Shown here: piece by piece, positions 4,525 through 55,433 of the stretch
Position numbering within the stretch: the stretch's first letter is position 1
How the letters are laid out: each line of letters opens with the position of its first letter
Assembly: GCF_945952435.1 (NCBI RefSeq)
Contig: NZ_CAMFHZ010000009.1
Span: 1-64,000, forward strand
Origin: an uncultured Microbacterium sp.
GTDB lineage: Bacteria > Actinomycetota > Actinomycetes > Actinomycetales > Microbacteriaceae
Direction of reading: 5' to 3'
Length of the DNA stretch: 64,000 bases
Made by a program: the position numbers and the translations under genes
The notes under the pieces: generated by a model
Databases searched by the model: none
What the model was told of the DNA's origin: nothing
The model's input: the letters and a program-made list of their open reading frames with translations, nothing else

Positions 4525-5181
4525 ATGGAAACGAACATCGTCGGTGTCGGAGTCGGCATCAGCGATCGATTCCGGGCGGTTGTCGAGGAGAAGACCGCGC
4601 GCATCGCGACGATCGCGACGAAGGCGCAGAGCCTCGACGTGAAAGTCACCCATCGTTCCTATCGCGGCGGTCATGTGGAGGACGAGACCGTCGAACTCAC
4701 CCTCATCGGCAAGGGGCCACTGGTGCGTGCCGAGGCGCGCGACGGCGACAAGTTCGTCGCGCTGGATCTCGCCGTAGACAAGCTCATCGAGCAGGTCCGG
4801 CGGGCGAAGGAGCGCCGTGTGGACGGCCGCAACCATCCGCGGGGAGCCCACTTCGAGAAGGGCACGGGGGAGCTCGCCGGCATCGACGTCCGCCCCGTCT
4901 CCGCCGACACCCTCCACGCGGTATCCACGGGCGCGATCCCCACCCTCCAGATCGAGGAGGAGTACTCCCCGGTCGTGATCCGGACCAAGAACTTCGATGC
5001 GGAGTGGATGACCGTGGAAGAGGCCGTCGACCGGATGGAGCTCGTCGGCCACGACTTCTTCCTCTTCGTCGACGCGCGCAGCGATCACCCGAGCGTGGTC
5101 TATCGACGCAAGGGCTGGGACTACGGCGTCATCTCGCTGACGACGCAGGCGGCGCCCGCCGCCGAAGAGCTCGTCGGCTGA
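4525..5181 (+). CDS. hpf: Ribosome hibernation promoting factor, long form
   Basis: This 218 aa factor binds the 30S decoding region and promotes 100S ribosome dimers in stationary phase. An N-terminal S30AE domain (about residues 1-100) is followed by the C-terminal dimerisation domain (about 150-210; VVIRTKNFDAEWMTVEEAV, FFLFVD, WDYGVI). Both domains are present, so this is the long form. ATG 4525 is chosen because AAGGAGG lies just upstream; the ORF-track extension to 4429 runs through the promoter. A strong hairpin follows the gene. Confidence 0.93.
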   Translation: METNIVGVGVGISDRFRAVVEEKTARIATIATKAQSLDVKVTHRSYRGGHVEDETVELTLIGKGPLVRAEARDGDKFVALDLAVDKLIEQVRRAKERRVDGRNHPRGAHFEKGTGELAGIDVRPVSADTLHAVSTGAIPTLQIEEEYSPVVIRTKNFDAEWMTVEEAVDRMELVGHDFFLFVDARSDHPSVVYRRKGWDYGVISLTTQAAPAAEELVG

Positions 5182-5200
5182 GACAGCCCGGCGGCGTCAC

Positions 5201-5237
5201 GAGACCCCGCCTCCGCCCCGGCGGAGCGCGGGGTCTT
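5201..5237. terminator. Bidirectional terminator hairpin
   Basis: AGACCCCGC pairs with GCGGGGTCT, and CTCCGCC/GGCGGAG extends the stem inward. It sits between the convergent hpf and the downstream minus-strand gene. Confidence 0.7.
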
Positions 5238-5284
5238 CTCCGTGGGAGCGGAGGGGCTCGTCGGCGGCGGAGAAGGGGCCGGCG

Positions 5285-6610
5285 TCAGTCGAAGATGTCG
5301 CCCAGGAGTCCGCCGATGACGAGTCCGCCCAGGACGCCCGAGACGATGTCGCCGCCCCCGGATCCCCGGCGTCCGCCACCACCGCCCCAGCCGTTGCCGC
5401 CGCCCCAGCCCTGATCGGGGCGCGAGGAGTCGATGTCGCGCTGCGCGAGCTGCAGCGCCTCGGAAGCGAGCTGTGCGACGCGACGGGCCGAGCTCAGGGC
5501 CTCTTCGCGCGTGTCCTCGGCGGGGAGCAGGGAGGGGACGTCGATGCGCAGGCGCTCCGCCTCCGCCAGGCGGGTGCGGGCGTCGGCGCCGATCCACCCG
5601 CGGTGACCCTCGATGAGGCCCCGGGCGACCCCGAGCTGGCGGTCCGCGTCGTCGAGGGCGTGCTGCACCGCGTCGATCGAGGGGAGCGGGTGTTCCGCAC
5701 GGTAGCGCGCGGCCGAGACGGCGGCATCGAGCGCGGTGTTCGCCGCACGCAGGCGCGTGAGGTCTCCGAACGGGTCCGTCCGGGTACCGGTCGCGGGGAG
5801 GGCGTCGAGAGCCCGCTGCAGCTCGGCGGCCGCCGCGGCGACGGCGGGCGCCGCCTGCGCGGGGGGAAGCGCGACGAGGTCGCTGCGGGAGTCGGCGACG
5901 ACCTCGGCGAGGGTCGCCTCCGCGCGCAGGGCCTCGATCTCGAAGTCGTCCACGGCATCGAGCAGGGCGGCGGCGCGTCGGGTCGCCTCCGTCGCGGTCT
6001 CGAGCGCGAGCACCGCCTCGCGGGTTCGGCCGGACTCCCGTCGCCGTTCGGAGACGTCGGCGCCGTGCGTGGCGAACGTGACGAGCTGCGCGGCCTCCTC
6101 GGCGCTCTTGACCACGCGCTGCATGGCCGCGTCCGAGTAGCGGGTGGACAGGCGCTCCACCGCGGACTGCGCCTGGGGGACCCTCGCCTGCAGCTCCGCC
6201 GCGTCCTGGCGCACGCGGGCGAGGATCTCCGGGGCGTTGCGCACGCGCGCGACGGCGTCGGCGATGTTCGCCGACTTCTCGTCGATCAGATCCTCGGCCC
6301 ATTCGCACAGTTGGACGATGCGCGCGTTGCGGGTGCGCAGCTCCTCCGCGGTGTCCGGGATCTCGTCGTGGTTGAGCTGGTGCAGTTGGAACGCCTCGCC
6401 CATGTGCGACCGCACGGCGTCGAGGGCCGTGTGGAAGTCGGCGGTCATCTCGTCGCCGAGCTCGGCCGCCGCGAAGGCGAGCTCGTCGCCGGCCGTGCGG
6501 ATCCGTTCGTCGGCGGCGACGATCGCCTGCTCTGCGCGGCGCGCGAGATCGTCGTCCTGCGCCTGCAGTTCTTCCTGTTCGCGCTTGCGTCTGCCCCAGA
6601 AACCGGCCAT
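5285..6610 (-). CDS. Coiled-coil protein related to the C-terminal half of the TPM protein
   Basis: This 441 aa protein is mostly predicted alpha-helical coiled coil and ends in a Gly-rich tail (GWGGGGG...) and a short hydrophobic Gly/Val/Leu segment. It has no signal peptide or catalytic motif. It resembles the cytoplasmic half of the TPM protein at 53400-55433: shared HDEIPDT/DDEIPDT, the following LCE motif, GADxRTRxAxA, and a Gly-rich C-terminus. It lacks the secreted TPM domain and the membrane anchor. TAGGAT six bases before ATG suggests leaderless transcription. Function is unknown; a PspA-linked envelope-stress role is a guess. Confidence 0.78.
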   Translation of the reverse strand: MAGFWGRRKREQEELQAQDDDLARRAEQAIVAADERIRTAGDELAFAAAELGDEMTADFHTALDAVRSHMGEAFQLHQLNHDEIPDTAEELRTRNARIVQLCEWAEDLIDEKSANIADAVARVRNAPEILARVRQDAAELQARVPQAQSAVERLSTRYSDAAMQRVVKSAEEAAQLVTFATHGADVSERRRESGRTREAVLALETATEATRRAAALLDAVDDFEIEALRAEATLAEVVADSRSDLVALPPAQAAPAVAAAAAELQRALDALPATGTRTDPFGDLTRLRAANTALDAAVSAARYRAEHPLPSIDAVQHALDDADRQLGVARGLIEGHRGWIGADARTRLAEAERLRIDVPSLLPAEDTREEALSSARRVAQLASEALQLAQRDIDSSRPDQGWGGGNGWGGGGGRRGSGGGDIVSGVLGGLVIGGLLGDIFD

Positions 6611-6669
6611 GCCCCGATCCTATGATCTCGGGCCGTGCCAGAGCTGAGCGTCGATTGCGCCCTGGGCGA

Positions 6670-7266
6670 TCAGACCACCGCGGATCGCGCGGGGCGTCCA
6701 CGCTTGGGACGCTCGCGATCGAGCTCGAGCCGGAGGGCGTGCCGCGGGTGTCGGGCGAGCCGCTCCTCGGCCCGTGCGAGCAGGCGCAGGTCCGCCTCGA
6801 CGGCGCTGACGAGCGCATCCCGGACGAGGGCGCCGGCGAGTCCGTCCGCCGTGTCGGGGCTCGCCGGGTCGTCGAGGGGATCCTGCAGGTCGTGCAGCCG
6901 GGCCAGGCACGATTCGCGCTGGGCGCGGATCACGTCGGCGATCTCCGCGCGGGGCAGGGTCGCCGCCAGCGCGAGCTTGATCGCGAGCTCGTCCCGCACG
7001 GCGGCACCGCGCTGCACGGGGGAGGCGAGCCAGTCGGAGACCTCCGCGGAACCGCTCTCCGTGATGGCCCAGTAGACATGCCCCTGCGCGTCGGTCTCGC
7101 CGCGGGCGACGAGGCCGTCGCGTTCGAGCCGCTCCAGCGTGTTGTAGATCTGGCCGACGTTGAGGGGCCAGGCCGAGCCGGTGCGCCGATCGAACTCGGC
7201 ACGCAGCTGGTAGCCGTAGCATGGTCCCTGGTCGAGGATCGCGAGCAGGCTCTGGCGTACCGACAT
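6670..7266 (-). CDS. PadR family transcriptional regulator
   Basis: This 198 aa protein has the PadR winged helix at its N-terminus (AILDQGPCYGYQLR..., then YNTLERLERDGLV) and a C-terminal helical dimerisation region (Vir-like, about residues 90-170). PadR proteins repress transporter or detoxification genes in response to small ligands. No obvious target transporter adjoins it; its divergent neighbour is secA. The ATG has a GAAGGAG ribosome-binding site. A candidate operator lies in its own promoter. Confidence 0.87.
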   Translation of the reverse strand: MSVRQSLLAILDQGPCYGYQLRAEFDRRTGSAWPLNVGQIYNTLERLERDGLVARGETDAQGHVYWAITESGSAEVSDWLASPVQRGAAVRDELAIKLALAATLPRAEIADVIRAQRESCLARLHDLQDPLDDPASPDTADGLAGALVRDALVSAVEADLRLLARAEERLARHPRHALRLELDRERPKRGRPARSAVV

Positions 7267-52605: not shown

Positions 52606-53346
52606 TCAGCCCTCGAGCGCTTCCCGCGGCGCCGTCGAACCGGCCTTCAGCTCGGCGAGCCGTGCCTCGACCTCGGTCAGCTCTCCGACGTCCTCGAGGC
52701 TCTCGAACTGCGCGTCGATCGACGAGGCCGCCAGCTCCGCCTTGCCCTGGGCGATGGCCTCCTGGCGGCGGATCTTGTCCTCGAAGCGCCCGAGCTCGCT
52801 GGTCGGGTCGAGGACGTTGATCGAGGAGACCGCGTCCTGGACCTTGCTCTGCGCCTCGGCGACCTTGGCGCGCGCCAGCAGTTCGCTGCGCTTGTTCTTG
52901 AGCTCGCCGAGCTTCTCCTTCATCGTGTTCAGGCCCGACTTGAGCTTGTCGACGATCTCCGTCTGCGCCGCGATCTGCGGCTCGGCCGTCTTCGCCTCGC
53001 GCTCGGAGCTGATCTGACGCTGCAGCGCGACCTTGGCGAGGTTGTCGAACTTGTCGGCGTCGGCGGTGTTGCCCGCGCCGCGGAGGTCGTCGGCCTTGCG
53101 GCTCGCCGCGAGCGCCTTGTTGCCCCACTCGGCAGCGGCCTGCACGTCCTCCTGGTGGTCGCGCTCGAGCAGGCGCAGGTTGCCGATGGTCTCGGCGATG
53201 GCCGACTCGGCGTCCGCGATGTTGTTCGTGTAGTCGCGCACGAGCTGGTCGATCATCTTCTGCGGGTCCTCTGCGGAGTCGAGGAGCGCGTTGATGTTGG
53301 CCTTCACGAGGGTCGAGATGCGGCCGAAGATGGACTGCTTGGTCAT
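52606..53346 (-). CDS. pspA: PspA/IM30 phage-shock-type membrane protein
   Basis: This 246 aa coiled-coil protein opens MTKQSIFGRISTLVKANINALLDSAEDPQKMIDQLVRDYTNNI, the amphipathic start of PspA/Vipp1, followed by long heptad-rich helices and the C-terminal helix SSIDAQFESLEDVGELTEVEARLAELK. PspA polymers stabilise stressed membranes. It is downstream of the TPM gene with a short gap, a known association. A GGAAGG ribosome-binding site precedes ATG. Confidence 0.92.
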   Translation of the reverse strand: MTKQSIFGRISTLVKANINALLDSAEDPQKMIDQLVRDYTNNIADAESAIAETIGNLRLLERDHQEDVQAAAEWGNKALAASRKADDLRGAGNTADADKFDNLAKVALQRQISSEREAKTAEPQIAAQTEIVDKLKSGLNTMKEKLGELKNKRSELLARAKVAEAQSKVQDAVSSINVLDPTSELGRFEDKIRRQEAIAQGKAELAASSIDAQFESLEDVGELTEVEARLAELKAGSTAPREALEG

Positions 53347-53399: not shown

Positions 53400-55433
53400 T
53401 CAGAAGCGCCCGCCGGATCCGGAGCGGCCCCCGCCGCCCGAGCGGCCTCCGCCGCCGAAGCCGGAGGCTCCGAAGCCTCCGCCGCTCGAACGCCATCCGC
53501 CTCCGCCGGGCCCCCATCCGGAGGAGCGTCCGCCGCCGGAGAGGATCCCGCCGATGATCCCGCCGAGGATCGCGCCGCCCAGGTCGCCGCCGCCGCGCCC
53601 TCCCCAGGATCCTCCGGACGGGAGCGCGGCGCCGCCGTCGAACACGTCGAGTGAACGGTCGGCGAGCGCGGACGCCTCTTGCGCGAGCGAGATCGCGCGC
53701 TGCGCGTGCTGCAGGGCTGTCGCCGGATCGGCGGTGCGCGACGCCTCTGCCTGATCGTATTCCGCGCTCGCCTGCGCGATCCGCGTCCGCGGGTCCGCGC
53801 CCATGGCGCCGCGTCGGGTCGTGATGTAGGTGGTCGCGGTCGAGATCTCGGCGCGTGCCTGGGCGAGCGTCTGCTCCAGCACCTGCCGCGCACGCTCCGC
53901 CTGCTGCTGCGCGTCACGGATCGCGGACAGCGTCTCGTCGATGCGCGTGTTCGCCGCCGTCAGGACTTCGAGCACGGCCATCGGGCGCCGCCCTGTGCCG
54001 GTCAGATCGGTCTGCGCCTGGGCGAGCGCCGCCCGGGTCGCGGCGACGACCGCGTCGCGTTCGGGGGACGGCGGCAGCGCGGATGCCGCGGCGACGTCCT
54101 GTTCGAGGTCTGCGATGAGCGCACGGGCCTTCTCCTCCGCGGCGTGCAGATCGTCCCGCAGGGTCGTGAGCGCGGCCGCGAGCTGATCCGCCTGGAGCAC
54201 CGCCTCCTCCGCCGTGCGGATCGCGAACGCCGCCTCCCCGCGCTTGCCCTCGGCGAGCAGGCGGTGCGCGTCGGCGATGCCGGCATCGGCGAGCGCCAGC
54301 CGGCTCGCGGCCTGGCCGGGGTTCTCCACGACCGTGCTCAGGGCGCTCGCGTCGTACGAGCCCTGCAGCGTCAGGAGCGCCGCGGGTGCGCCGGCGACGA
54401 CGGACGTCGCCGCGGCGCGATGCTGCTCGAGGTGCGCGAGCGCCTGTTCGGCGTCCTTCTCCAGGGCGCGCAGCTCGTCGAACGCCGCGACGTTGGCGTT
54501 CAGCGCCGTGTCGGCGGCCTCGCAGAGGCGGATGATCCTGAGGTACCACTCCCGGCGTTGCGCGTCGGTGTCCGGGATCTCGTCGTCGAGTCTCTGTTTG
54601 AGCGAGAACGCCTCGTCGAGCTTCGCCTTCGCCTTCGCGACCACGTCCGTGAAGACCGCGGTCGATGCGTCCCCGAACTGCGCGGTCGCGAAGCCGAGAT
54701 CCTCGGTCGAGCTCGTCACCGCATCGTCGGTGCGCACGAGGGCGGAGCCGGCGCGCGTCTCGAGCTCGTCGTCGCTGATCGCGTCGAGCGGATCGGCGAC
54801 CGGCTCCGTGGACACGGGTCGGATCCGCGCCGCGGCCCTGCGCCGCATCGCGATCAGCACGACGATCGCGACGACGATGGCCAGGATGCAGGCGATGACG
54901 AGGACGATGCCCACGAGGTCGGGACCGCCGGACCCGCCTTCGAAGCCGGCCGCCGCGGTGCGCACGGCGCCGGCCCAGTCGGAGTCGTGCAGATCGTTCA
55001 CGAGCGACGCCGAGATCCGATCGACCTGGGAGAGCGGTATCGGACCGTCCTCCGAGGCGGACAGGTAGTAGCTGCGTCCGTCGGTGGCGATCGCGAGCAG
55101 GTACTGCCGGTCGCCGAGGTCGTTGTCCTTCGCGACCTGCTCGGTCCACTGCTGCCGGTTTTCCGGGTCCGTGAAGCGATCGACGAACACGACGAAGAGC
55201 TGGAGGTCCTTGGCCTTGCTGAGAGCCGTGAGACGCTGCTCCAGCTCGGTTCGCTCCCGCGCGCTCAGCACCCCCGCCTCATCGGTGAGGTAGTCCTGGC
55301 CGAGCGGGACGGGCGCCGTCGCGGGCGCCGAGGACGCGGCGGACGAGGTGTCGGCGAGCGCAGGAGGGACCGCCACGGACACGCCGAGCACGCCCAGGAG
55401 CAGTCCGACGACGACAGCCCAGCGTGCGCGCAT
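53400..55433 (-). CDS. TPM-domain membrane protein with a long coiled-coil C-terminus
   Basis: This 677 aa protein has a signal peptide (MRARWAVVVGLLLGVLG), an extracytoplasmic TPM domain (about 45-165; DEAGVLSARERTELEQRLTAL, FVVFVDRF, YLLAIATDGRSYYL), one transmembrane helix (about 185-210), then a long cytoplasmic coiled coil and a Gly-rich tail. TPM domains accompany PspA in many phyla. The coiled coil resembles the 441 aa protein at 5285. ATG 55433 has AAAGGAG upstream; the ORF-track extension is unlikely. Confidence 0.86.
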   Translation of the reverse strand: MRARWAVVVGLLLGVLGVSVAVPPALADTSSAASSAPATAPVPLGQDYLTDEAGVLSARERTELEQRLTALSKAKDLQLFVVFVDRFTDPENRQQWTEQVAKDNDLGDRQYLLAIATDGRSYYLSASEDGPIPLSQVDRISASLVNDLHDSDWAGAVRTAAAGFEGGSGGPDLVGIVLVIACILAIVVAIVVLIAMRRRAAARIRPVSTEPVADPLDAISDDELETRAGSALVRTDDAVTSSTEDLGFATAQFGDASTAVFTDVVAKAKAKLDEAFSLKQRLDDEIPDTDAQRREWYLRIIRLCEAADTALNANVAAFDELRALEKDAEQALAHLEQHRAAATSVVAGAPAALLTLQGSYDASALSTVVENPGQAASRLALADAGIADAHRLLAEGKRGEAAFAIRTAEEAVLQADQLAAALTTLRDDLHAAEEKARALIADLEQDVAAASALPPSPERDAVVAATRAALAQAQTDLTGTGRRPMAVLEVLTAANTRIDETLSAIRDAQQQAERARQVLEQTLAQARAEISTATTYITTRRGAMGADPRTRIAQASAEYDQAEASRTADPATALQHAQRAISLAQEASALADRSLDVFDGGAALPSGGSWGGRGGGDLGGAILGGIIGGILSGGGRSSGWGPGGGGWRSSGGGFGASGFGGGGRSGGGGRSGSGGRF

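Follow-up and report, generated by a model that had tools for sequence, protein, structure and literature searches.

A TPM-free coiled-coil protein of Microbacterium and its proposed place in the PspA envelope-stress system

The window analysed here is a stretch of 64,000 nucleotides from an uncultured Microbacterium sp. (contig NZ_CAMFHZ010000009.1). On its minus strand, an open frame at positions 5285–6610 encodes a coiled-coil protein of 441 aa without a TPM domain, for which we use the label SOL. Orthologues of SOL were found at 80 GTDB loci, mostly of Microbacterium and Agromyces. The TPM gene of the window (53400–55433, minus strand) encodes a protein of 677 aa that combines a signal peptide, a TPM domain (Pfam PF04536, E 1.4e-16), a membrane helix at about residues 176–194 according to hydropathy, a coiled coil homologous to SOL and a Gly-rich tail. 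Directly downstream of it lies the gene of a PspA/IM30 protein (52606–53346, minus strand; Pfam PF04012, PspA_IM30, E 5.8e-40), which is 46 kb away from SOL. SOL and the TPM protein are the only two copies of the coiled-coil family in the genome of the window. No Pfam or NCBIfam domain was detected in SOL above cut-off, and the PADLOC, Pfam and NCBIfam searches returned only coiled-coil matches below it.

SOL starts with an aromatic and basic N-terminus (MAGFWGRRKREQ, residues 1–12, positions 6575–6610), followed by a domain that is all-helical in the AlphaFold2 model (residues 13–396, positions 5423–6574). Within this domain, the LNHDEIPDT loop between helices 2 and 3 (residues 79–87, positions 6350–6376) is the most conserved motif shared with the TPM protein, and GADARTRLAEAER (residues 341–353, positions 5552–5590) is likewise common to both proteins. 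The C-terminus is a hydrophobic Gly-zipper, GGGDIVSGVLGGLVIGGLLGDIFD (residues 418–441, positions 5288–5359), defined by hydropathy and by conservation among orthologues. All these parts are encoded on the minus strand. Between SOL and the convergent gene of a ribosome-hibernation factor (S30AE), positions 5181–5285 hold a GC-rich inverted repeat that is perhaps a two-way terminator. Because the repeat has no T run, a simple terminator scan of this interval was empty.

Six nucleotides before the ATG of SOL lies TAGGAT (6617–6622, minus strand), the putative -10 box of a leaderless promoter. Of 83 upstream regions, 81 have a -10-like hexamer at a distance of 6–7 nt from the start codon: TAGGAT in 67, TAAGAT in 8, TAGAAT in 5 and TAGACT in 1. 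Since this spacing leaves no room for a leader, SOL is probably expressed from a leaderless mRNA of its own. We also looked for a promoter motif shared between SOL and TPM-pspA; the two differ: SOL has the leaderless TAGGAT, whereas TPM-pspA mostly has TAGACT together with a leader and an SD sequence.

A preliminary description of this locus had presented SOL as a relative of the TPM coiled coil on the basis of several motifs. All of them are present in both proteins: HDEIPDT corresponds to DDEIPDT, QLCEWA to RLCEAA and GADARTRLAEA to GADPRTRIAQA (SOL given first), and both end in a Gly-rich tail. BLASTP aligned SOL with the TPM protein over 383 colinear residues with 32% identity (114 bits, E 1e-31). 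As controls, 300 heptad-block shuffles reached at most 29.3 bits and 300 residue shuffles at most 25.0 bits, and the reversed TPM protein scored 20 bits. The suggested profile comparison, in which the kinship could have failed, was significant: a profile of 61 SOL orthologues matched the TPM protein with a probability of 99.9 and E 3e-34, tail included, and placed the Gly-zipper of SOL on GGDLGGAILGGIIGG. In the LNHDEIPDT loop, D82 and P85 are invariant in the 61 orthologues, and D82 is invariant throughout the family. SOL and the cytoplasmic, coiled-coil half of the TPM protein are true paralogues of common descent. The TPM domain itself is absent from SOL, as described, with no match to PF04536. 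Homology of SOL to PspA was considered separately and rejected (no PF04012, and a probability of 0.06% in hhalign against the PspA of the window).

The AlphaFold2 model of SOL, based on the 61 orthologues, is all-helical with a mean pLDDT of 87.8. The model of the TPM coiled coil is likewise all-helical (pLDDT 89.8); as its alignment consisted of SOL orthologues, the two models are not fully independent. The order of helices matches between them, both tails are disordered, and both coiled coils are apparently arrays of three-helix bundles in these predictions. A search for solved homologues of SOL yielded nothing beyond designed bundles and weak matches to coiled coils.

SOL had been described as soluble. 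It indeed has neither a signal peptide nor a membrane helix by hydropathy, as its most hydrophobic 19-mer, the Gly-zipper tail, reaches 1.97 vs 3.76 for the membrane helix of the TPM protein. Nevertheless, a plainly soluble protein is doubtful, because sister proteins without TPM carry an N-terminal membrane helix where SOL has its aromatic and basic N-terminus, and because both ends of SOL are conserved. The FWGxRxR start is near-invariant, with F4, W5, G6, R8 and R10 each conserved in more than 90% of the 61 orthologues. At the other end, a Gly-rich hydrophobic C-terminus with the consensus GGxLGGLVIG..DGIFD occurs in about 92% of sequences, and G428, G429 and G433 are kept in 92% of SOL orthologues. 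Judged from these patterns, both ends look like membrane-contact elements, and SOL likely makes peripheral contact with the membrane.

To place SOL among its relatives, we used a tree of the coiled-coil family computed by a quick method with SH-aLRT support. It separates three groups: TPM proteins (support 88), the SOL group (99) and a tail-less group (99) whose members mostly carry an N-terminal membrane helix. In several genera of the SOL group (L114–L120), the membrane helix at the N-terminus has been retained, with basic residues after it. Microbacterium, Agromyces and their close kin form a nested clade (support 100) within this group and start with MAGFWGRRKR instead. On the simplest reading of the tree, the SOL of the window would descend from membrane-anchored relatives. 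Proteins of another family (L121, L165, L166) also lack the membrane helix and start with MFGGIFGR.

The tree and the loci also reveal further copies. Agromyces and its kin (L065, L069, L098, L103, L104, L167) have a second SOL copy, in tandem or nearby, which the tree places as a recent duplication; it lacks the Gly-zipper tail in L065, L069, L098, L103 and L104 and is in two pieces in L167. The tail-less proteins (L122–L131) are widespread in the family. In L125, L126, L127 and L130 their gene adjoins, in divergent orientation, the gene of a protein of about 1250 aa that resembles helicases/nucleases and in L126 has weak AAA_12 and MTES_1575 matches. Some Microbacterium have a third, divergent coiled-coil member (G034:C1:2438001-2439854, G004:C1:1938330, G033:C21:34497), and the copy of G034 also covers the TPM part.

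To see how the coiled coil is distributed relative to PspA, we surveyed 120 Microbacteriaceae genomes. The coiled-coil family was found in 71 of them, and typical PspA in exactly the same 71. Neither was present in 46 genomes, and a weaker, other type of PspA occurred alone in 3. Typical PspA thus accompanies the coiled coil in 71/71 genomes vs 0/49 without it (Fisher p ~8e-35, phylogeny ignored). Two entries were excluded from the coiled-coil counts, a sub-threshold-like fragment in G070 and a TPM-domain-only protein in G126. Within genus g36 (21 genomes), 13 have both and 8 have neither. At the order level, PspA is present in 49 of the 50 genomes with the coiled coil, and the coiled coil in 49 of the 64 with PspA; partial weak matches in G218 and G232 were left uncounted. 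As the other 15 PspA genomes contain no family member, the partnership is bound to a lineage and PspA has other partners elsewhere. At the class level, the coiled-coil profile matches about one fifth of genomes, some of them weakly. The family's second, weaker-scoring type of PspA occurs both in genomes that have the coiled coil and in genomes that lack it (G085:C1:3733656, G160:C1:933270, G082:C1:1640384). The tie between SOL and PspA rests on the relatives of SOL and not on the arrangement in the window.

We then asked what remains when the TPM protein is lost. A TPM-less coiled coil is present in all ten PspA-positive Microbacteriaceae genomes without a full-length TPM protein, some of which are draft assemblies, vs 31 of 61 PspA-positive genomes with one (p 0.004 from a hand count, uncorrected for phylogeny). 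In one of the ten (L161), the TPM gene is missing while the gene order around pspA is otherwise conserved. Where the TPM protein is present, pspA adjoins its gene in every locus fetched (L132–L151). A TPM-less, membrane-anchored coiled coil is also encoded directly upstream of pspA in two further families (L152, L153). L153, which groups with a TPM protein on the tree, lost the TPM domain independently; L152 forms a long branch of uncertain placement. The distribution suggests that PspA needs the helical part and not the exported TPM domain.

SOL does not adjoin pspA in the window or in the Microbacterium and Agromyces loci examined. In another genus, g36, the two genes are neighbours in four genomes. 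Three of these (L192–L194) carry TPM, PspA and SOL in this order on the same strand, the gaps between pspA and SOL measuring 93, 43 and 89 nt. Their SOL starts with TTG or GTG after an SD-like sequence and is not leaderless, and two of the three gaps contain hairpins that may be terminators. The fourth (G071, locus L113) has lost TPM, and its SOL and pspA genes are divergent. The four sequences form one clade nested among those of Microbacterium, and this adjacency therefore counts only once. It represents a single relocation event that landed beside pspA out of some 3,000 genes.

In Bacillus subtilis, the TPM protein YdjH binds PspA in a two-hybrid assay, and the membrane foci of PspA need YdjH (PMC8581546). 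YdjH carries a TPM domain, and TPM domains are listed as PspA partners, and the function of the domain is debated (PMC11237479). By analogy, the actinobacterial coiled coil is most likely the part that docks PspA, and SOL would then act at the membrane face as a TPM-free adaptor. Our main reading, with a probability of roughly 0.55, is that SOL belongs to the PspA envelope-stress system as a membrane-surface adaptor of PspA that has its own promoter and can replace the TPM protein where this has been lost. The helical domain would dock PspA or a PspA-TPM complex, and the FWGxRxR N-terminus and the Gly-zipper tail would hold the docked PspA at the inner membrane surface. Such an adaptor would work without an exported TPM domain, would probably be expressed independently of the TPM-pspA operon and could stand in for the TPM protein. 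More tentatively, the coiled coil may be an unrecognised core partner of actinobacterial PspA and the TPM domain an optional module. Microbacterium might then run two branches, one membrane-spanning and coupled to TPM, the other peripheral, TPM-free and separately transcribed.

Alternatively, SOL could be a structural scaffold like the spectrin-like division protein EzrA, with only an indirect link to PspA through a shared set of envelope-maintenance genes. The predicted three-helix-bundle arrays fit this idea, and EzrA is among the weak fold matches of both the SOL and the TPM coiled-coil models (probability 0.60 for both, E 0.5–1.2). However, the PDB search with these models gave no match below E 0.001, and the exact match in presence and absence with PspA, together with the genes beside pspA, argues for a direct link. 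We consider a pure scaffold unlikely.

The preliminary description had tentatively placed SOL in the PspA system as a partner or a decoy. Membership is supported by the 71 shared genomes and the pspA-adjacent genes of genus g36; the decoy part found no support. As a competitor in the cytosol, SOL would pair with PspA or with the coiled coil of the TPM protein and so hold PspA back from the membrane until stress. A paralogue with a separate promoter, able to form mixed assemblies and lacking the TPM domain and the membrane helix, would suit such a task. Yet a decoy should be dispensable once its target is gone, whereas TPM-less copies are the only family members left in 10 of 71 PspA-positive genomes. 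In addition, the conserved ends suggest membrane contact. A decoy role is therefore the less likely half of the proposal and, in our view, improbable.

It is highly improbable that SOL belongs to the adjoining PadR regulator or to the PadR-linked ABC transporter of its relatives. The PadR gene (6670–7266) is on the same strand, 59 nt upstream of SOL, and PadR and transporter genes precede SOL in several Microbacterium. However, the neighbours of SOL vary among the Microbacterium and Agromyces loci examined: PadR is not beside SOL in Agromyces and many Microbacterium, where other genes intervene or PadR is absent, and SOL retains its own conserved leaderless promoter. A PadR/ABC-transporter operon was rejected for these reasons. 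In the several Microbacterium with the transporter, an ABC ATPase and an FtsX-type permease of about 900 aa are encoded between PadR and SOL; neither lies between the two genes in the window, and its PadR may be an orphan of such a transporter. Finally, chance similarity between two Ala/Glu/Arg-rich helical proteins of a high-GC genome has a negligible probability and is refuted by the scores of the shuffled and reversed sequences and by the profile comparison.

In these comparisons it is the coiled coil that follows PspA, for which there is no Pfam model, and TPM can go while PspA and the coiled coil stay. This makes the coiled coil a candidate PspA-docking element in these actinobacteria and a target for experiments, in which the natural TPM-free versions could help to separate sensing from docking. 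Our literature search found general papers on PspA and TPM and none on stand-alone coiled coils of this kind.

Among the known systems close to SOL are the PspA-linked TPM proteins of the YdjH type. SOL shares with them the tie to PspA and, through the local TPM protein, the homologous coiled coil and Gly-rich tail, but lacks their signal peptide, TPM domain and membrane helix and, in Microbacterium, has a locus and promoter of its own. The homology concerns the local TPM protein, and YdjH enters by analogy. With the ESCRT-III-like PspA/IM30/Vipp1 proteins, SOL would share the stress system and a long helical build, but neither Pfam nor a profile comparison relates it to the PspA of the window. 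The cytoplasmic domain of EzrA also strings three-helix bundles together beside the membrane, as predicted for SOL, and EzrA has an N-terminal helix like the membrane-anchored relatives of SOL; the fold match is not significant (E 0.5–3.5), and no sequence relation was found. In its proposed way of working, SOL resembles the SPFH adaptor YdjI of B. subtilis, a protein likewise without a membrane helix, on which recruitment of PspA to the membrane depends (PMC8581546). YdjI differs by its SPFH domain and zinc finger, whereas SOL belongs to no Pfam family above cut-off.
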